Part shown: positions 12,578-28,009 of the stretch, piece after piece
Layout of the letters: each line of letters starts with the position of its first letter
Position numbering within the stretch: the stretch's first letter is position 1
Source: Meiothermus cerbereus DSM 11376
GTDB taxonomy: Bacteria > Deinococcota > Deinococci > Deinococcales > Thermaceae
Length of the DNA: 64,000 nt
NCBI RefSeq assembly: GCF_000620065.1
Contig: NZ_JHVI01000008.1
Location: 62,001 to 126,000 of the forward strand
Direction of reading: 5' to 3'
The notes under the pieces: model-generated
The model's input: the letters and a program-made list of their open reading frames with translations, nothing else
Told to the model about the DNA's origin: nothing
Databases searched by the model: none
Translations under genes and position numbers: made by a program

Positions 12578-12654
12578 GGGCCGTTAGCTCAGCCCGGTAG
12601 AGCACTCGTCTCCAAAACGAGGTGTCGGAGGTTCGAATCCTTCACGGCCCGCCA
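12578..12654 (+). tRNA. tRNA-Trp (CCA anticodon)
   Basis: A complete 77-base cloverleaf: acceptor GGGCCGT/ACGGCCC, D-arm GCTC/GAGC, anticodon stem CTCGT/ACGAG with loop CTCCAAA (anticodon CCA), T-arm GGAGG/CCTTC with TTCGAAT, discriminator G and an encoded CCA end. The part from base 33 of the gene onward (12610-12654) is repeated at 22366-22410. The tRNA itself remains intact on the left side of the inserted element. Confidence 0.97.
12610..12654 (+). repeat. attL, 45-bp direct repeat in the tRNA-Trp 3' end
   Basis: Identical over 45 bases to 22366-22410. The flanking bases differ on both sides (T versus G before, G versus A after), which defines the core limits. Confidence 0.92.
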
Positions 12655-12736
12655 GAACGTCCAGGACACAAGAGTTTGAAAAATAAAGTTTATCGGCCTG
12701 CTGCCCTAGTCTAGACGTCAAACCCTGGAGGGCAGC

Positions 12737-13660: not shown

Positions 13661-13807
13661 TTGCCTTTAATGCAGCGAGACCCCATAACGCCGAGAGAGC
13701 AGGTGGGGGAATGAAAACAGTCCCCCTGCTGTGTCCTAGCATGTACGCCCGACAGGCCACACGCTGGGTCAGTCTACCGAGGTTTGAGGCTTTGGGGGAC
13801 CATGAAT

Positions 13808-13831
13808 GTACACGCACGGACCCGCGTGTAC
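13808..13831 (+). promoter_or_regulatory. Perfect 8-bp inverted repeat upstream of the serine recombinase
   Basis: GTACACGC and GCGTGTAC are separated by 8 bases and end 9 bases before the ATG at 13841, next to the ribosome binding site GAGGAAG. This could be an operator for autoregulation or a recombinase-binding site. Confidence 0.5.
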
Positions 13832-13840
13832 GAGGAAGCC

Positions 13841-14521
13841 ATGAAGACTGTCGCCTACATCCGAGTTAGCACCGCCGAACAAGCCGACCAGGGGGTATCC
13901 CTCGAGGCCCAAGCTGCTCGACTAAGCGCTTATTGCATCGCCCAAGGCTGGCCCCAGCCCGAAATCGTGGAGGATGCCGGGGTAAGCGCTAAGAGCTTGG
14001 ACCGTCCAGGTCTGGGGCGAATCCTCGAGGCCATCCGACGTAAGCAGGTAGGCCGCTTGCTGGTGCTCAAGCTGGACCGGCTCACCCGCTCGGTGGCCGA
14101 CCTCTCGCCCTTGCTCAAGGCCCTGGACCGGGGTAACTGCCAGCTAGTGTCCTTGGGCGAGTCCCTGGATACCTCCACGGCAGCCGGAAGACTGATGCTC
14201 AACCTGCTGGTCTCGGTTAGCCAGTGGGAACGGGAGGCCATCGCAGAGCGCACCCGCATAGCCTTGAGGCACAAGCGCAGTACTAAAGCGGTTTACAACC
14301 ATGACCCGCTGGGCTTCAGGCGGGTCGGGGAGACCCTGCAACGGGTGGAGGAGGAATTCGCCACGGCGGTGCGGGTGCTCGAGCTTTATCGGCAAGGCCA
14401 CGGGCTCAACGCCATCGCCCGGAGGTTGAACGCTGAGGCCATCCCCACCAAGACCGGAGGACAGTGGTACGCTAGCACGGTCAAGCGGATTGTCGAGCGG
14501 CCTGAGCTCTATGGGCTCTAG
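13841..14521 (+). CDS. Serine recombinase (resolvase/invertase family)
   Basis: A 226-residue serine recombinase. Catalytic Ser10 lies in YIRVSTAEQ, followed by QADQGVSLEAQ, LLVLKLDRLTRS and the helix-E region SVSQWEREAIAERTR. The C-terminal 70 residues have a helix-turn-helix form (LNAIARRLNAEAIPT) with a short recombinase-domain remnant, so it is resolvase-sized rather than a large serine integrase. ATG 13841 was chosen because it has GAGGAAG at proper distance; the longer TTG start has no support. Having both tyrosine and serine recombinases suggests a second function such as dimer resolution or inversion. Confidence 0.9.
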   Translation: MKTVAYIRVSTAEQADQGVSLEAQAARLSAYCIAQGWPQPEIVEDAGVSAKSLDRPGLGRILEAIRRKQVGRLLVLKLDRLTRSVADLSPLLKALDRGNCQLVSLGESLDTSTAAGRLMLNLLVSVSQWEREAIAERTRIALRHKRSTKAVYNHDPLGFRRVGETLQRVEEEFATAVRVLELYRQGHGLNAIARRLNAEAIPTKTGGQWYASTVKRIVERPELYGL

Positions 14522-14604: not shown

Positions 14605-17334
14605 ATGACGCCTGAGGAGAAAGCCAGGCAAGCGATTGACCGGCAGCTCGAGGCTGCGGGATGGGTTGTCCAGGACATGGAGGAGTTCGACCGCTACGCT
14701 GGCTTAGGCGTGGCCGTGCGGGAGTTCCCCCTGCTAAGCGGCGAGGCCGATTACCTGCTGTTCGTGGACGGCAGGGCGGTAGGGGTGCTCGAGGCCAAGC
14801 CGCAGGGCACCACCTTGAGCGGAGTGGCCGAGCAGACCAAGAAGTACCTCGAGGGCCTGCCGCCCCATGTGGCGCACCACCACAGCCCCCTGCCCTTCGG
14901 CTACGAGAGCACCGGGGTGGAGACCTACTTCCTCGACCGACGCGACCCCGAACCCCGCAGCCGCCGGGTGTTCAGCATCCACCGGCCTGAAACCCTGCTC
15001 GAGTGGGTCCGGCAGCCCGACACCCTGCGCTCGCGGCTCCAGCAGATGCCGCCCCTCCCCACCGCCAACCTGCGGGATTGCCAGGTGGAAGCCGTACAGG
15101 GCCTCGAGGCTTCCCTCGCCCAGAACCGGCCCCGCGCCCTCATTCAGATGGCGACGGGTTCCGGCAAGACCTTTACCGCCGTCACCGCCTGTTACCGCCT
15201 CATCAAGTTCGCGGGGGCCAAGCGCATCCTCTTCCTGGTGGACCGCAAGAACCTGGGCAAGCAGACCTTGGGGGAGTTCCAGCAGTACGTGACCCCCGAC
15301 GACGGGCGCAAGTTTGGCGAGCTTTACAACGTGCAACTCCTGGGCGGTACGCGCATTGACCCCGTCGCCAAGGTGACCATCGGGACCATCCAGCGGTTGT
15401 ATTCGATGCTACGGGGCGAGGAGCTCGACGAGGAAGCTGAGGAAGTCTCGCTCAACGAGCTCAACCTCCAGAACCAGCGGCCCAAGGAAGTGGCCTACAA
15501 CCCCGACATTCCCCCCGAGACCTTCGACTTCATCATCACCGACGAATGCCACCGCAGCATCTACAACCTGTGGCGGCAGGTGCTGGAATACTTCGACGGC
15601 TTCCTGATTGGCCTCACCGCCACCCCCTCCAAGCAGACCCTGGGCTTCTTCAACCAGAACCTAGTCACCGAGTATAGTTTTGACCGTGCCGTAGCCGATA
15701 ACGTCAACGTGGATTACGACGTGTACCGCATCAAGACCCAGGTCACCGAGCAGGGGGCCAGGGTGGAGGCCGGGCAGTACGTGGACAAGCGGGACAAGCT
15801 GAGCCGCAGCCGTCGCTGGGAAGCCCTGGACGATGACCTCGAGTACCGCCCCAACGAACTTGACCGCAGCGTGGTGGCGACTGACCAGATACGCACCGTC
15901 ATCCGCACCTTCAAGGAAAAGCTCTTCACCGAGCTATTCCCCGGACGCATCCACGTGCCCAAGACCCTTATCTTCGCCAAGGACGACTCCCATGCCGAGG
16001 ACATCGTGGAGATTGTGCGCGAGGAGTTCGGCAAGGGCAACGAGTTTTGCAAGAAAATCACCTACCGCACCACCGAGGACCCTGAGACCCTCATCAAGGA
16101 GTTTCGCAACAGCTATAACCCGCGCATCGCGGTGACAGTAGATATGATTTCCACCGGAACCGACATCAAGCCCTTGGAGTGCCTGCTGTTCATGCGGGAC
16201 GTGAAGAGCCAGGTCTACTTCGAGCAGATGAAGGGCCGGGCCACCCGCACCATTGACCCCTCTGACCTGAGGGCGGTGACCCCCGATGCCCTGGGCAAGA
16301 CCCACTTCGTGCTGGTGGACGCGGTGGGCGTCACCGAGTCGGACAAGACCGATAGCCGCCCCCTCGAGCGCAGCCCCAGCGTGCCCTTCAAGAAGCTCAT
16401 CGAGCGGGTCATGGTGGGCGACCGCAGCCCCGACACCCTCTCGAGCCTGGCCTCCCGCCTCAGCCGCCTGGAGCGCAAGCTCGACCCCAAGAGCCGCCAG
16501 TCCTTCCAGGAGCAGACCGGCCACACCCTGCCCGACCTCGCCAACCGGCTGCTCGACGCCCTGGACCCGGACAAGGCCGAGGCGCTGGCCAGGGCCACCA
16601 CCGGACAGACCGAGCCGCCCCCAGAGGCCATCCAGCAGGCCCGAGAAACCCTGACCGAGGCCGCCTGCCGTCCCTTCAACGGCAAGCTCAAAGACGCCCT
16701 CGTGAGCCTCCAGCAGCAGGCCGAGCAGGTCATTGACACCGTCACCAAGGACCAGGTGACCTATGCCGGTTACGACTTCGAGAAGGCTACCCGCCTGGTG
16801 CAGAGCTGGCGGGAGTTCATCGAGGCCAACAAGGACGAACTCACCGCCCTGCAAATCCTCTACAGTCGCCCCTACGCTCAGCGTAGGCTGACCTTCGAGG
16901 CCATCCAGCAACTGGCCCAGGCGGTGGAGCGCCCCCCCTACCACCTGACCCCAGAGAGCCTCTGGAATGCCTACGAGCGCCTCGAGCAGGGCCGGGTGCG
17001 CGGGGCAGGCCCCAAGCGCCTGCTGACCGACCTGGTGGCCCTGGTGCGCTTTGCCACGGGGCAGGCCGAGGTGCTGGAGCCTTTCGCCCTCACCGTGGAG
17101 GAGCGCTTCAAGGGCTGGCTCGAGCGCCAGCAGGCCAGCGGCAGGCAGTTCACCGAGGAGCAGATGGAGTGGCTGACCATGATTCGAGACCACATCGCCG
17201 CATCCGCCGCCATCACCGTGCAGGACTTGGAACTCTCGCCCTTTAGCCAGCGGGGAGGCCAGTACAGGGCGGTTATGCTGTTCCCCAACGTGAAGCAGCT
17301 ACTGGACGAACTCAACGAGGTGCTGGCCGCATGA
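14605..17334 (+). CDS. hsdR: Type I restriction enzyme R subunit (nuclease-translocase)
   Basis: A 909-residue HsdR. The N-terminal nuclease domain has Asp49 and the ExK pair Glu63/Lys65 (GEADYLLFVDGRAVGVLEAK), the PD-(D/E)xK core. The SF2 motor follows with Walker A ATGSGKT (183-189), the DEAH-type box DECH (313-316), and the motif VI-like GRATRTIDP. The C-terminal 250 residues would contact the methylase. With HsdS and HsdM it cuts DNA lacking the host methyl pattern after ATP-driven translocation. The stop overlaps the hsdS start by 4 bases. A -10-like TAGAAT lies at about 14587. Confidence 0.95.
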   Translation: MTPEEKARQAIDRQLEAAGWVVQDMEEFDRYAGLGVAVREFPLLSGEADYLLFVDGRAVGVLEAKPQGTTLSGVAEQTKKYLEGLPPHVAHHHSPLPFGYESTGVETYFLDRRDPEPRSRRVFSIHRPETLLEWVRQPDTLRSRLQQMPPLPTANLRDCQVEAVQGLEASLAQNRPRALIQMATGSGKTFTAVTACYRLIKFAGAKRILFLVDRKNLGKQTLGEFQQYVTPDDGRKFGELYNVQLLGGTRIDPVAKVTIGTIQRLYSMLRGEELDEEAEEVSLNELNLQNQRPKEVAYNPDIPPETFDFIITDECHRSIYNLWRQVLEYFDGFLIGLTATPSKQTLGFFNQNLVTEYSFDRAVADNVNVDYDVYRIKTQVTEQGARVEAGQYVDKRDKLSRSRRWEALDDDLEYRPNELDRSVVATDQIRTVIRTFKEKLFTELFPGRIHVPKTLIFAKDDSHAEDIVEIVREEFGKGNEFCKKITYRTTEDPETLIKEFRNSYNPRIAVTVDMISTGTDIKPLECLLFMRDVKSQVYFEQMKGRATRTIDPSDLRAVTPDALGKTHFVLVDAVGVTESDKTDSRPLERSPSVPFKKLIERVMVGDRSPDTLSSLASRLSRLERKLDPKSRQSFQEQTGHTLPDLANRLLDALDPDKAEALARATTGQTEPPPEAIQQARETLTEAACRPFNGKLKDALVSLQQQAEQVIDTVTKDQVTYAGYDFEKATRLVQSWREFIEANKDELTALQILYSRPYAQRRLTFEAIQQLAQAVERPPYHLTPESLWNAYERLEQGRVRGAGPKRLLTDLVALVRFATGQAEVLEPFALTVEERFKGWLERQQASGRQFTEEQMEWLTMIRDHIAASAAITVQDLELSPFSQRGGQYRAVMLFPNVKQLLDELNEVLAA

Positions 17335-18860
17335 GCGAGGTACAAGCTGCTCTATTCGGCACCGAGGCCGAACCGAAGACCCAAGAACTGCCGGAGTTGC
17401 CGATGGGATGGGCGTGGGCGAGACTGAACGAAGTCTCACGCATTAACCCTGGGCTCGAAATACCACCGGAGCAGCTTCCTGACGACCTCGAAGTCTCATT
17501 CGTCCCGATGAAAGCCATTGAGGAGGAGTCCGGTCGTATTTATACGGGTGATGTGCGTCCTATAAGACAAGTCCGCAAAGGTTACACAGCTTTTGTCGAG
17601 GGTGATATCCTCTTCGCCAAAATTACTCCGTGCATGGAGAACGGCAAAATTGCTGTCGCAAGGAACCTCCACAATGGCATCGGCTTTGGAACCACGGAGC
17701 TGCACGTAGTCCGCCCAGAGAGCGGCATTGATGCCCAATACCTGTTCTACTTTTTAGTACGCCAGGACTACCGTACACAGGCTGCGCACAGCATGACTGG
17801 CACGGCAGGCCAATTACGTGTACCGGCAGACTTCCTTAGGAGCAGCTTTTTACCTCTTCCCCCCCTTAACGAGCAACGCCGCATCGTGGAGAAGCTCGAG
17901 GAGCTTCTAAGCGACCTCGATGCCGGGGTTGCCACACTCCGCCAAGCCCTTGCCAAGCTGAAGCGTTACCGCCAAGCGGTGCTGAAGGCGGCGGTGGAGG
18001 GCGAGCTTAGCCGGGAGTGGCGCGAGGCGAACAAGGACAGGCTCGAGCCTGCAAGTAAGCTGCTCGAGCGCATCTTGGCTGAACGCCGGGACCGTAGTTC
18101 AGGCAGCAAGAAGTATAGGGAGCTCGAGCCCCCGAACACCAGCGAACTCCCGGAGCTGCCGGAAGGATGGGTATGGGCCAGTGTCGAGCAAGTGGGACAC
18201 GTCCAGCTTGGCCGCCAGCGCTCACCTAAGAATCGCTCAAAAGACTATCCGACACCCTATATTCGCGCCGCTAACATTACAGAGAAGGGGCTTGACCTAA
18301 GCGACGTTTTAGATATGGAATTTACCCCGCAAGAATTAGAGGTCTACCGCCTATTACCCGGTGACATTGTTCTTTCGGAGGCGTCAGGAAGTCCAGACCA
18401 AGTGGGGAAGCCAGCAATTTGGGGAGGCGAAATTGAAAACTGTTGCTTCCAAAACACAGTTATTCGGCTTAGACCTGCACTTATCAGCAGTCAGTATCTC
18501 TTGGCTGTGTTCCGAAGCTACTACGTAACTGGTGTATTCGCACGCATAGCAGGAGGAGTTGGCATAAACCATCTCAGCGCGGGAAAATTCGCCCGCATTG
18601 CTATTCCTATTGCGCCCTATGAGGAGCAAGCCTACATCGTAGCTGAAGTAGACCGCCGCCTCTCCGAGGCCGACCGCCTCGAGGCCACCCTCCAAGCCAA
18701 CCTCAAGCGGGCCGAGCGGTTGCGCCAGGCCATCCTCAAGAAAGCCTTTAGCGGCGAGCTTGTACCACAAGACCCCAATGACGAACCGGCTTCGGTGCTG
18801 CTCGAGCGCATCCGGGCCAGCCGTGCTCAGGCTCCCAAGAAGGGCAAACGCAAACAGTAG
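17331..18860 (+). CDS. hsdS: Type I restriction-modification specificity subunit
   Basis: A 509-residue HsdS with the usual two-half layout. Each half has a target recognition domain introduced by ELPELPxGWxWA (near residues 19 and 275) and followed by a conserved helical spacer (LEELLSDLDAGVATLRQALAKLKRYR and VDRRLSEADRLEATLQANLKRA). The two TRDs read two parts of a split DNA site; the site itself cannot be predicted by eye. Stretches within both TRDs are visibly richer in A and T than the flanking genes, consistent with domain swapping. The start lies within the hsdR stop (ATGA) and hsdM follows at 8 bases. Confidence 0.93.
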   Translation: MSEVQAALFGTEAEPKTQELPELPMGWAWARLNEVSRINPGLEIPPEQLPDDLEVSFVPMKAIEEESGRIYTGDVRPIRQVRKGYTAFVEGDILFAKITPCMENGKIAVARNLHNGIGFGTTELHVVRPESGIDAQYLFYFLVRQDYRTQAAHSMTGTAGQLRVPADFLRSSFLPLPPLNEQRRIVEKLEELLSDLDAGVATLRQALAKLKRYRQAVLKAAVEGELSREWREANKDRLEPASKLLERILAERRDRSSGSKKYRELEPPNTSELPELPEGWVWASVEQVGHVQLGRQRSPKNRSKDYPTPYIRAANITEKGLDLSDVLDMEFTPQELEVYRLLPGDIVLSEASGSPDQVGKPAIWGGEIENCCFQNTVIRLRPALISSQYLLAVFRSYYVTGVFARIAGGVGINHLSAGKFARIAIPIAPYEEQAYIVAEVDRRLSEADRLEATLQANLKRAERLRQAILKKAFSGELVPQDPNDEPASVLLERIRASRAQAPKKGKRKQ

Positions 18861-18868
18861 GAGTCTCT

Positions 18869-20341
18869 ATGTCCGCAGCCGCAAGTGTACTGGTGCAGAA
18901 AGTTTGGAACTATGCCCACGTCCTCCGCGACGACGGCGTGAGCTATGGCGATTACCTCGAGCAAATTACCCTGCTGGTGTTCCTCAAGATGGCTCAGGAG
19001 CGCCTGGAAATCAACCAGGCATTGGGCGAGGAAGTGCGGCCCATCGTGCCCGAGGAGTATTCCTGGCCCGTGCTGGTGAAGCTGGACGGGGCGGCGCTCG
19101 AGAGCTACTACCGCTCGGTGCTGGAGAGCCTGGGGCGGGGCGGCGGGATGCTGGGCACCATCTTCAAGAAGGCCCAGAACAAAATCCAGGACCCGGCCAA
19201 GCTCAAGCGGCTCATCAGCCTGATTGACGGCGAGCGCTGGATGGCCCTGGACGTGGACGTGAAAGGCGAGATTTACGAGGGGCTCTTGGAGCGCAACGCC
19301 CGCGACATCAAGAGCGGGGCAGGGCAGTACTTCACCCCCAGGCCGCTCATCCGGGCCATGGTCGAGGTCACCCGGCCCAGGCTGGGTTGGAAGATTGCCG
19401 ACCCCGCCTGTGGCACGGCGGGTTTCCTGGTGGCGGCCTTCGAGTACATCGCGAAACACAACCCCCTGATGAACCGGGAGGAGCGCCGCATCCTGCGCGA
19501 GGAGATGTTCTATGGGGCCGACATCGTGGATGGCGTGGTGCGCCTGGCCGCGATGAACATGTACCTCCACGGCATCGGCACCGACGAGAAGGCCCTGGTG
19601 GAGGCCAGGGACTCGCTGGCCTCAGAGCCCAGCGAGCGCTATGACCTGGTGCTGACCAACCCTCCCTTCGGCAAGAAGTCGAGCATCCGCGTCATCAACG
19701 AGCGGGGCGAGGAGGAGCGTGAAGCCCTTACCTACGAGCGCCAGGACTTCTGGGCCACCACCTCCAACAAGCAACTCAACTTCGTCCAGCACATTCACTC
19801 GATGCTCAAGGTGGGCGGCACGGCGGCCATCGTAGTGCCCGACAACGTGCTGTTCGAGGGCGGGGCGGGGGAGACCGTGCGGCGCAAGCTGCTCCAGACC
19901 TGTGACGTGCATACGCTGTTGCGATTGCCCACGGGCATCTTCTACGCCCAGGGGGTCAAGGCCAACGTGCTCTTCCTGGAGAAGAAACCCGGCAGCGAGA
20001 AGCCCTGGACCAAGCAACTCTGGGTTTACGACCTGCGTACCAACCAGCACTTCACGCTCAAGGAGAACCCCCTCGAGTACCACCACCTTCTGGACTTCAT
20101 CGCCTGCTACAAGCCCGGTGAAATCCACAAGCGCGAGCCCACCGAGCGCTTCCGCTGCTTCAGCTACGAGGAGCTCATGCAGCGGGACAAGGTCAATCTC
20201 GACATCTTCTGGCTCAAGGACGAGAGCTTGGAGGAATCGGAGAACCTGCCCGCGCCCGAGGTCTTGGCTCAGGAGATAGTGGAGGACTTACAAAGCGCCC
20301 TTGAGGCTTTCTCAGGGATTGCCGAGGCGCTCGAGCCGTGA
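18869..20341 (+). CDS. hsdM: Type I restriction-modification methyltransferase subunit
   Basis: A 490-residue adenine-N6 methyltransferase. The N-terminal HsdM helical domain (VWNYAHVLRDDGVSYGDYLEQITLLVFLK) is followed by SAM motif I DPACGTAGF (from Asp178) and catalytic motif IV NPPF (264-267). With HsdS it methylates the recognition site and protects it. Length agrees with family members. The gene order R-S-M places the protective enzyme last; the order hsdR-hsdM-hsdS is more usual. A good ribosome binding site (TAGGAG) lies before the ATG. Confidence 0.95.
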   Translation: MSAAASVLVQKVWNYAHVLRDDGVSYGDYLEQITLLVFLKMAQERLEINQALGEEVRPIVPEEYSWPVLVKLDGAALESYYRSVLESLGRGGGMLGTIFKKAQNKIQDPAKLKRLISLIDGERWMALDVDVKGEIYEGLLERNARDIKSGAGQYFTPRPLIRAMVEVTRPRLGWKIADPACGTAGFLVAAFEYIAKHNPLMNREERRILREEMFYGADIVDGVVRLAAMNMYLHGIGTDEKALVEARDSLASEPSERYDLVLTNPPFGKKSSIRVINERGEEEREALTYERQDFWATTSNKQLNFVQHIHSMLKVGGTAAIVVPDNVLFEGGAGETVRRKLLQTCDVHTLLRLPTGIFYAQGVKANVLFLEKKPGSEKPWTKQLWVYDLRTNQHFTLKENPLEYHHLLDFIACYKPGEIHKREPTERFRCFSYEELMQRDKVNLDIFWLKDESLEESENLPAPEVLAQEIVEDLQSALEAFSGIAEALEP

Positions 20342-20882: not shown

Positions 20883-21485
20883 ATGCCCATGGAGCGTAAG
20901 AGACCGGTCTTGGTGCCCAAGGCATGGAGGTATTCGAGACTGCGCAAGCGAATGCATGCGAGGACCTACCGCAGATGGGTGGGCAGAATGCATCAACTAA
21001 TCGGAAAGGACCAGGCTGGACATCTGCCGCCGGGTGCCGTCACCATGACGTTCAAGGGGGACACCCGGCTGTTGTATGACCTCAGGGTTCGTGGTGCCTT
21101 TGAGAGAAGGCTCAAGGACCTTCTGCCCAACACCCCGCACGTCATCAAGTACGAGATGGATGAGGACGGGATGGGAGCGCATGCTCACGTTACGGCAAAG
21201 CCGACTATGGAAGCCTGGAGGCTAGCGAATACTGCTCATCGGCGAGACAGTCTGGTCAAGGCATGGGAAGCTGTAGAGAGCTTTCGGAGGGAAGTGCACA
21301 GTGCCAAGTATAGGGACCAGCCTCAATGGTCTGGGTATGTCGAAGAAGAGGATGCTAGCGAATGGGCTGGGTATATGGCTAAGCAGACCTACGACGGTGG
21401 GTTACGAGACACCCACGATGTAGGGAGTAGAAGCACTTGGAGGAGACAGGAAGAGCATAGGGACTGGGCTAGACGAACAGGTTGA
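20883..21485 (+). CDS. Probable HUH-endonuclease replication initiator (Rep-like)
   Basis: A 200-residue protein with the three landmarks of HUH single-strand endonucleases in the right order: motif 1 AVTMTF (52-57), motif 2 with Glu91 and the histidine pair His100/His102 in EMDEDGMGAHAHVTAKP, and motif 3 Tyr164-M-A-Lys167 (EWAGYMAKQ). In rolling-circle Rep proteins the histidines bind a metal and the tyrosine nicks the origin. The N-terminus is very basic. The ribosome binding site TAGGAGGAAGG is strong. It lies upstream of the repeats at 21615-21648. It could be a relaxase-like or transposase-like HUH protein instead; assignment is by motif only. Confidence 0.6.
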   Translation: MPMERKRPVLVPKAWRYSRLRKRMHARTYRRWVGRMHQLIGKDQAGHLPPGAVTMTFKGDTRLLYDLRVRGAFERRLKDLLPNTPHVIKYEMDEDGMGAHAHVTAKPTMEAWRLANTAHRRDSLVKAWEAVESFRREVHSAKYRDQPQWSGYVEEEDASEWAGYMAKQTYDGGLRDTHDVGSRSTWRRQEEHRDWARRTG

Positions 21486-21614
21486 CAGTAACCATGGACG
21501 GGTGGAATAGCAAGAATAGAGGAGAAGGGAATAGCGTCAGGGAGAGAGGAGAGAGAGGGTGGAAACGAAGACGGCAACAAGAATGTAGGCCATGGACCGG
21601 CGACTACCGGCCAT

Positions 21615-21648
21615 AGGCTAAAGGCTAGAGGCTAACGGCCTGTAGCCT
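21615..21648 (+). repeat. Three 7-bp tandem repeats with an inverted partner, possible origin
   Basis: AGGCTAA, AGGCTAG and AGGCTAA follow each other at 21615-21635, and the complement TAGCCT lies at 21643-21648. A small stem CCGG..CCGG precedes them. Short direct repeats beside an HUH initiator gene recall rolling-circle double-strand origins. The flanking 21486-21600 is purine-rich on the plus strand and holds no gene. Confidence 0.4.
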
Positions 21649-21657
21649 GCACAACGC

Positions 21658-21686
21658 AAACCCCCTCGCTGCCAGCGAGGGGGTTT
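21658..21686 (+). terminator. Strong 13-bp hairpin between the initiator and the last gene
   Basis: AAACCCCCTCGCT and AGCGAGGGGGTTT pair perfectly around GCC; GGCTTCTTT follows. It probably terminates the Rep-like transcript. A role as a single-strand origin hairpin is also possible. Confidence 0.65.
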
Positions 21687-21708: not shown

Positions 21709-22362
21709 ATGAAAACATACTACAGTAAGTACGACCAGAACAGCAAAGGCTCTGAGGAACTGGCTATGCGAGCGATGGTGCGCGCGCTAATTGCGGGAGG
21801 GTGGATTGGCGGTCTTGAGGACCAGGTGACCATCGAGCTCACCGAGGGCGTGGCCCCCTACGACGGCATTATCCGGGGTGGCGGTAAGAAGCTCAAGGTC
21901 GAGGTGGTGCGTGCATACGCCAACAGGTATGACCCCGTGACGGGCAGGCTTGTGCCCGAGGAGAACGTGCGCTTTAGCCGAGGCAAGGTGGAGCGCTGCT
22001 ACAAGCACGGCACGGCTCTGCTGGTCGTCCTGTACGAGTCCGACGCCAAAGGTGCGCGAGCGCTCGAGGTCTACGCTTTCCTGCCCGGTGAGCGAGGCTA
22101 TGAGGTCCTGAGGGACAAGGAGATTGAACGCACACACCGCCCAGGCTGGGTACATCAGGGAAGCAGTGCTGGAGACCGGCAGTATACCAGCCACAAGCGA
22201 AGCTTTATCCACGGAATAGCCGACCGGATAATCCGCGTAGAACAGGGCCAGCTTACCGAGCTTGAAAGCGTAGACAGACAGTCGTATACTGCATCTCGGA
22301 TTAGGGTACGGGCTGATTCTTGTGTCCAGGACAACAGAATCTGGGGTGTCGGTGAAACTTAA
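21709..22362 (+). CDS. Unknown protein at the right end of the element, possible nuclease fold
   Basis: A 217-residue protein I do not recognise. The segment TIELTEGVAPYDGIIRGGGKKLKVEVVRAYA has the order (Tyr)-Asp, strand, Glu-x-x seen in PD-(D/E)xK folds, but the usual lysine is valine, so activity is doubtful. The C-terminal third is polar. ATG 21709 is preferred; TTG 21706 directly before it is possible. It lies alone after a terminator and stops 4 bases before the right attachment repeat, a position often held by cargo such as defence or toxin genes. Function unknown. Confidence 0.6.
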   Translation: MKTYYSKYDQNSKGSEELAMRAMVRALIAGGWIGGLEDQVTIELTEGVAPYDGIIRGGGKKLKVEVVRAYANRYDPVTGRLVPEENVRFSRGKVERCYKHGTALLVVLYESDAKGARALEVYAFLPGERGYEVLRDKEIERTHRPGWVHQGSSAGDRQYTSHKRSFIHGIADRIIRVEQGQLTELESVDRQSYTASRIRVRADSCVQDNRIWGVGET

Positions 22363-22365
22363 GGG

Positions 22366-22410
22366 CTCCAAAACGAGGTGTCGGAGGTTCGAATCCTTCA
22401 CGGCCCGCCA
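22366..22410 (+). repeat. attR, 45-bp direct repeat of the tRNA-Trp 3' part
   Basis: Identical to 12610-12654. Without the 5' half it cannot form a tRNA. The bases following it (AAAATTT..., then a terminator at 22428) are presumably the original downstream flank of tRNA-Trp. Confidence 0.92.
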
Positions 22411-22427
22411 AAAATTTAATGGGTGTT

Positions 22428-27210: not shown

Positions 27211-27951
27211 TCACAACCCGATTGAGTTTTCGCGATCTTTGCTCCAGCGCCGAGGATTTTGTGCAATGTAATGGCGGCGGATGTTCAGTTCGTGTTCGTC
27301 TCGCAGGATGCGCTCGTAGTAGTTGGGTTGCCAGAAGTGGCCGTCGAACGGAGGCCAGCCCAGTTCCTTCACGCCCGTGATGTAGCGCCGTGTTGTCAGA
27401 GATTTGAACCGCCCCACAATGTCTGCCAACCGTAACCCCGTAGGGGCAGGCTCCCGTGCCTGCCCCATTGCTTGCCCCCGTGCCTGCTCCCGTGCTTGCC
27501 CCAATGCCTGCCCACCATCCCCCGGCAGCGATAGCGGGTTAACGGGGCAGGGTTGATTTGCCAGCGGGGGTTCGGGGTCAGGGCGGTCACGGGGGTCAGG
27601 GCGGTCACGGGGGTCAGGGCGGCCACAGGGGTCAGGGCGGCCACAGGGGTCAGGGCGGCCACAGGGGGCCGCCCTTACGGGGGTTTTTAGCACGATAATT
27701 CCGTGTATGTGATTTGGCATCACTACGAAGGCATCCACCTCTACGCCTGGGTAATGCGAGGGAATGGCCTCCCATAGGGCCAAAACCATCTTCCCAGCCG
27801 GGCTGAGGTAGACTTTCCCATCCGCCACCTCGCCCAATAAGCAGCGTCTTTGGTGGATGTTGATGGTCACGAAATAGGCCCCGGCCTGCGAATAGTCGTA
27901 ACCCTTCAGTCGAATAGAACGGCGATGGTGTCTGTCGGGGTCGTAGGGCAT
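27211..27951 (-). CDS. REP-associated tyrosine transposase (RAYT) with a repeat-derived insertion
   Basis: A 246-residue Y1 transposase of the IS200-like TnpA_REP group. The HUH motif is MPNHIHGIIV and the catalytic Tyr lies in the YYERILRDEHELNIRRHYIAQNP region. RAYTs process palindromic REP sequences. The insert between HIHGIIVLKTPV and APTGLRLADIVGRF is low-complexity: five CGRPDP/RDRPDP units and five GQAR/EQAR-type units, encoded by repeats that end in REP-like palindromes (27435-27683). ATG 27951 is preferred because a longer frame would start inside the terminator of the upstream gene. It converges on dnaJ. Confidence 0.88.
   Translation of the reverse strand: MPYDPDRHHRRSIRLKGYDYSQAGAYFVTINIHQRRCLLGEVADGKVYLSPAGKMVLALWEAIPSHYPGVEVDAFVVMPNHIHGIIVLKTPVRAAPCGRPDPCGRPDPCGRPDPRDRPDPRDRPDPEPPLANQPCPVNPLSLPGDGGQALGQAREQARGQAMGQAREPAPTGLRLADIVGRFKSLTTRRYITGVKELGWPPFDGHFWQPNYYERILRDEHELNIRRHYIAQNPRRWSKDRENSIGL
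27435..27683 (-). repeat. Pair of inverted REP-like palindromes with tandem repeats, inside the RAYT gene
   Basis: Left palindrome GGGGCAGGC / GCCTGCCCC (27442-27465) is preceded by CCCCGTA. Right palindrome AGGGCGGCC / GGCCGCCCT (27652-27675) is followed by TACGGGG. The ends are thus inverted copies of CCCCGTARGGGC. Between lie five 12-bp units GCYTGCYCC.. (27457-27516) and five 18-bp units of the type GGGGTCAGGGCGGYCACR (27574-27663). All unit lengths are multiples of three and keep the reading frame. Confidence 0.8.
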
Positions 27952-27965
27952 TGCTTGGATAATAC

Positions 27966-27992
27966 AAAAACCCTCCCCAGTAGCGGGGAGGG
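27966..27992 (-). terminator. Intrinsic terminator of mmsA
   Basis: On the minus strand CCCTCCCC and GGGGAGGG pair around GCTACT, followed by five T. It lies 18 bases after the mmsA stop and 15 bases before the RAYT start. Confidence 0.85.
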
Positions 27993-28009
27993 TCTGCACA
28001 TTCTGTATC

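Follow-up and report, generated by a model that had tools for sequence, protein, structure and literature searches.

The window, a 64,000-nucleotide stretch of the Meiothermus cerbereus DSM 11376 genome, carries an element at a tRNA-Trp gene whose repeat unit of 9,756 bp is bounded by direct repeats of 48 bp (Table 1). The predicted empty-site junction matches sister species at 85 to 91% through the att site, and in several of these species tRNA-Trp directly adjoins the ATPase gene that follows attR in the window; the site therefore exists in an empty state. An att-like 45-bp match (L041:1379-1423) adjoins the same ATPase gene in another species of the genus (G005:C201), and on that contig two adjacent genes before the att-like match (L053:2659-5070) resemble, by reading, an AbiE-type toxin-antitoxin pair. 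The tRNA-Trp of the window may be a hotspot for defense genes.

Between the repeats lie genes for two recombinases, a type I restriction-modification system, an excisionase-family protein, an HUH-like protein of 200 residues, and a 217-aa protein that matches no family in Pfam, PHROGs, NCBIfam, or PADLOC. The serine recombinase, at only 245 aa, ends within the Recombinase domain and may be truncated. The HUH-like open reading frame, which the first-pass annotation had described as an unannotated-looking HUH endonuclease, is present as described; it starts with ATG behind a good ribosome-binding site (AGGAGG), and no curated family matches its product.

Table 1. Features of the element at tRNA-Trp, in window coordinates
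Feature	Position	Strand	Remarks
attL, 48-bp repeat	12610-12657	+	3′ part of tRNA-Trp (12578-12654)
Tyrosine integrase, 284 aa	12737-13591	+	Pfam PF00589, E 1e-31; 84% identical to G020 integrase
Short serine recombinase	13784-14521	+	resolvase domain and part of Recombinase domain
Type I restriction subunit R (cargo)	14605-17334	+	
Type I specificity subunit S (cargo)	17331-18860	+	
Type I methyltransferase subunit M (cargo)	18869-20341	+	
Excisionase-family HTH protein, 62 aa	20506-20694	+	TIGR01764 above cut-off; PF12728; 54% identical to G020 HTH protein
HUH-like protein, 200 aa	20883-21485	+	basic N terminus 1-42; motif I 52-57; E91; H100-A-H102; Y164-x-x-K167
Pair of DNA hairpins, candidate origin	21588-21648	+	~100 nt downstream of HUH-like gene
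217-aa protein	21709-22362	+	weakly related to G020 175-aa protein; ORF enters conserved right-end block
Right-end 72-bp block, conserved with G020 element	22261-22332		inverted copy of left-end GTCCxGGACACAAGA
attR, 48-bp repeat	22366-22413	+	98% identical to attL

The related element in G020 and the shared core

Among 111 genomes of the phylum, one clear relative of the HUH-like protein was found, in a genome of another genus of the same family (G020). The match covers 190 residues at 47% identity (E 3e-47) and was confirmed by profile; identity in the alignment is 45%. The relative lies in a 3,440-bp element at tRNA-Met that is flanked by perfect 47-bp repeats and has only four genes, encoding an integrase, an excisionase-like HTH protein, a 175-aa protein, and the HUH-like protein. 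Three genes common to both elements, for the integrase, the HTH protein, and the HUH-like product, therefore make up the shared core. The 175/217-aa protein may belong to it as well (25% identity across 152 alignment columns); the restriction system of the window element is cargo. The integrases of the two elements are far more alike (84% identity) than their HUH-like proteins (45%), which suggests modular exchange. The 175-aa protein (L004:10139-10666) has no family match; by eye, its IEVKQ stretch could be a PD-(D/E)xK nuclease motif. A still smaller unit (1,165 bp; L015:8303-9512 in G037, and the same in L016 of G047) is flanked by perfect 45-bp repeats of tRNA-Lys and contains only an integrase, 47% identical to that of the window, and is either a one-gene integrated element or a remnant.

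Between the two HUH-like genes, the nonsynonymous rate is about half the synonymous one (pN 0.40 versus pS 0.76, the latter saturated). Both genes are therefore judged to be coding and under purifying selection, and the open reading frame in the window is, on this comparison, a real gene. No further homologs were found in a collection of genome contigs, nor among phages and plasmids searched with both homologs. Viral contigs searched with the HUH-like protein, the alignment, the homolog, the HTH protein, and the integrase yielded no HUH-like homolog and a single weak match, to the HTH protein only. A match in G008 (E 0.009, 51 residues) was lost with the two-sequence profile, and the weak tblastn matches were attributed to chance: one is antisense to a microvirus gene (H4), one lies inside a peptidoglycan-binding-type ORF (H5), and one inside an unrelated Escherichia coli ORF (H1).

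The ends of both elements carry inverted repeats. The right end of the G020 element bears a short inverted copy of the left-end ACCGGTCTA(C)TGCCCTARTC, and the corresponding copy in the window lies in the conserved right-end block; each alone is modest, since shuffled sequence does as well in 6/300 (window) and 1/300 (G020) cases. Inverted copies of this kind would be expected at integrase arm sites, and the right-end block of the window element is probably one. Downstream of the HUH-like gene, the stretch at 21575-21660 folds with a z of −4.4, and none of 200 shuffles folds as well; the hairpin pair within it is a candidate origin. In the G020 element, hairpins lie upstream of the gene pair for the 175-aa and HUH-like proteins. 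Some hairpins in the non-coding DNA of both elements are terminator-like, folding of this DNA revealed no origin common to the two, and a scan for known nick-site words near the HUH-like gene returned nothing useful.

Motifs and predicted fold of the HUH-like protein

HUH endonucleases are defined by a set of motifs in which, in Rep proteins, the HxH pair precedes the catalytic Tyr, an order that is permuted in Mob relaxases (PMC6668415). The first-pass annotation had read the Rep order from the window protein, and every element of it lies where it was placed: residues 52 to 57 (AVTMTF) fit motif I, UUTU, and are followed by the Glu, the HxH pair, and, as motif III, Y164-M-A-K167. The spacing between HxH and Tyr164, given there as about 60 residues, is 62 counted from H102, and the very basic N terminus is borne out by 14 K/R against 1 D/E in residues 1 to 42. 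The proposed catalytic residues are thus T54, T56, E91, H100, H102, Y164, and K167. Among 100,000 shuffled versions of the protein, 28 matched a regular expression for the motif order, a figure that is suggestive only, because the motif was chosen after reading and a window holds many ORFs.

The G020 homolog adds independent weight to the motif assignment, and the conservation seen in it raises the assignment beyond the shuffle figure. All seven proposed catalytic residues are identical in the two proteins, an outcome with a chance of 0.4% at the average rate of a pair 45% identical; loss of the motifs among homologs, which had been named in advance as evidence against the HUH reading, was thus not seen in the one homolog available. 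The most conserved stretch is the Glu-HxH block, TPHVIKYExDxDGMGAHAHVTA (20 of 22 positions). H100-A-H102 is identical in the homolog, with Ala rather than a bulky residue in the middle, as is Y164-M-A-K167. Motif I of the homolog reads VITSTY; its fourth position, expected to be hydrophobic, is Ser, and for this reason the regular expression misses the homolog.

Profile searches, which the first-pass annotation had proposed against HUH Rep and relaxase families, gave no match to a known HUH family. The HUH-like protein had no match in Pfam, PHROGs, NCBIfam, PADLOC, or the PDB; within these, no match was found to the Y1_Tnp profile or RepSA (Pfam) or to a relaxase profile (Pfam, NCBIfam). Two marginal matches, to Pfam HVO_0513_N (E 0.046) and to an ephrin receptor chain in the PDB (E 0.41), were set aside as chance. 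Comparison of the HUH-like family by hhalign with seven microvirus VP4 proteins and three Rep_1-type proteins of the same phylum was not significant; the Rep_1 comparison aligns the Glu-to-HxH region, and 11 of 60 column shuffles score equally high. Judged by its sequences, the family is new to the libraries searched.

The structure was predicted from the single sequence of the window protein. The full-length model has a pLDDT of 47 and was uninformative in a structure search, whereas residues 49 to 184 modeled alone reached 62, with 73 to 84 in the core. In this model, strand 53-60 (motif I) is followed by helix 67-80, strand 86-92 (E91), strand 98-105 (H100, H102), helices, strand 150-153, and helix 155-172 (Y164, K167). 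Motif I, Glu, HxH, and Tyr/Lys therefore occur in the HUH order, although at moderate confidence and on four strands instead of the five-strand sheet that the first-pass annotation had named as supporting evidence. The top PDB match by Foldseek is an HUH Y1 transposase, IS200/IS605-type or REP-associated HUH transposases make up 14 of the 50 best PDB chains, and parvovirus NS1, a mastrevirus Rep domain, and a rudivirus replication protein are among the viral matches. No Foldseek match reaches significance (E < 0.001), and the TM-scores are low. Proteins of ferredoxin-like and PII-like fold rank high as well, some with a higher probability than the HUH enzymes. The topology is therefore supported but family membership is not proven; an HUH-like fold is probable. 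The first-pass reading as an HUH endonuclease is partly supported: it agrees with the motif order, with conservation in the one homolog, with the predicted topology, and with the place of the gene in the core of two elements, and it falls short of a significant structural match.

Known systems and the proposed role

Rep-type HUH proteins such as microvirus VP4 and pC194-like Rep_1 show motif I, Glu, and HxH in the same order, followed by YxxK on a late helix, and the spacing from E91 to H100 equals that of several VP4 proteins (GEYG...HYH). However, sequence homology to VP4 or Rep_1 is not detectable, and the HUH-like protein differs from them in being a stand-alone protein of 200 aa with a basic N terminus and with Ala in place of a bulky residue between the histidines. 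At the level of the element, a parallel is found in pSAM2-type actinobacterial integrative elements (AICEs), whose core combines an integrase with a rolling-circle initiator and which likewise have the integrase at a tRNA-type site, an excisionase-family protein, and, in RepSA, a putative rolling-circle initiator (PMC3218068). The tyrosine integrase, the tRNA site with direct repeats, and the empty site in relatives by which AICEs are recognized are all found for the window element. Unlike these AICEs, it has no gene for an FtsK-type Tra protein (all of its genes were assigned or scanned), and the G020 element measures only 3.4 kb. AICEs replicate through RepSA, RepAM, or Prim-Pol proteins, whereas the HUH-like protein matches none of these in Pfam, which includes RepSA; a search of the phylum for RepSA (PF20199), run without a positive control, gave no match. 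Rep-Arvir initiators, which belong to archaeal integrated viruses and plasmids (SNJ2), have a YxxK motif, are unrecognizable by sequence, and use as origin a hairpin located downstream of their gene (PMC13107129). The HUH-like protein resembles them as a sequence-unrecognizable initiator candidate with YxxK and downstream hairpins, but Rep-Arvir has been described as separate from HUH and as a relative of Rep_trans (PMC13107129), and the HUH-like protein has a conserved HxH pair.

Three other readings of the protein were weighed. Instead of an HUH nuclease, it could be a ferredoxin-like protein that binds DNA or RNA, perhaps as a regulator, and in which HxH and YxxK are coincidental. The Foldseek ranking of ferredoxin-like and PII-like proteins and the lack of any sequence family behind an HUH assignment speak for this, but coincidence would not yield a homolog in which all motif residues are kept and the motif blocks are the most conserved, and we consider this reading unlikely. 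A Y1 HUH transposase that moves the element or part of it would fit the best, though not significant, structural matches. We regard this as highly improbable, given that the protein has no Y1_Tnp match and that a tyrosine integrase acting at tRNA genes with direct repeats explains integration.

The first-pass annotation had left open whether the protein would serve replication after excision or nicking for mobilization. If it were mainly a relaxase, it would nick an oriT, for which the hairpins near its gene could serve, and the element would leave as single-stranded DNA by way of another element's machinery, a helper being needed because the window element has no recognized transfer genes. 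The Tyr precedes the His cluster in MOB relaxases and follows HxH here, however; no relaxase profile of Pfam or NCBIfam matches the protein, and a coupling protein gene was recognized in neither element. A principal role as relaxase is accordingly quite improbable. Replication is likelier than mobilization, because HxH precedes Tyr, as in Rep proteins, and neither the window element nor the G020 element has a recognized gene for coupling or transfer.

The reading that we favor, and consider likely, is that the protein belongs to an undescribed family of Rep-type HUH initiators and replicates the excised circle of a small integrated element. A role in rolling-circle initiation appears likeliest because the protein has the Rep motif order, is encoded by a core gene of two elements, and has a precedent in pSAM2-type elements. 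We infer excision, nicking, origin position, replication, and spread as follows. Excision of the element as a circle would fall to the integrase together with the excisionase-like HTH protein, after which the initiator would bind an origin close to the gene that encodes it. By the rolling-circle mechanism (PMC5714925), Tyr164 would nick one strand with a metal held by H100, H102, and E91 and with assistance from Lys167; the protein would stay attached to the 5′ end while the host polymerase copied the circle. The element could thereby persist or multiply before reintegration. A broader proposal, which we regard as possible but somewhat short of an even chance, is that this initiator family drives a family of minimal integrated elements in the bacterial family concerned. 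Four genes in 3.4 kb (integrase, excisionase-like protein, initiator, and one accessory protein) would suffice, larger versions would add defense genes such as type I restriction-modification, and spread would depend on foreign machinery or DNA uptake. If confirmed, the HUH initiators would gain a sequence family unrecognized by the libraries used, and the elements would show how small a gene set may suffice for an element that integrates and replicates. A group with little-described mobile elements could then provide a small enzyme for nicking as well as a natural vector that integrates.

On one contig of another genome (G031:C4), six Rep_1 matches (L022, L024, L026-L029), mostly about 3.3 kb apart, suggest tandem copies of a small rolling-circle plasmid, whether genuine or produced by the assembly. 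Outside the element, the window encodes a second HUH protein at 27211-27999 (− strand), a REP-associated/Y1-type transposase (PF01797) with in-frame CGRPDP/RDRPDP repeats inside.
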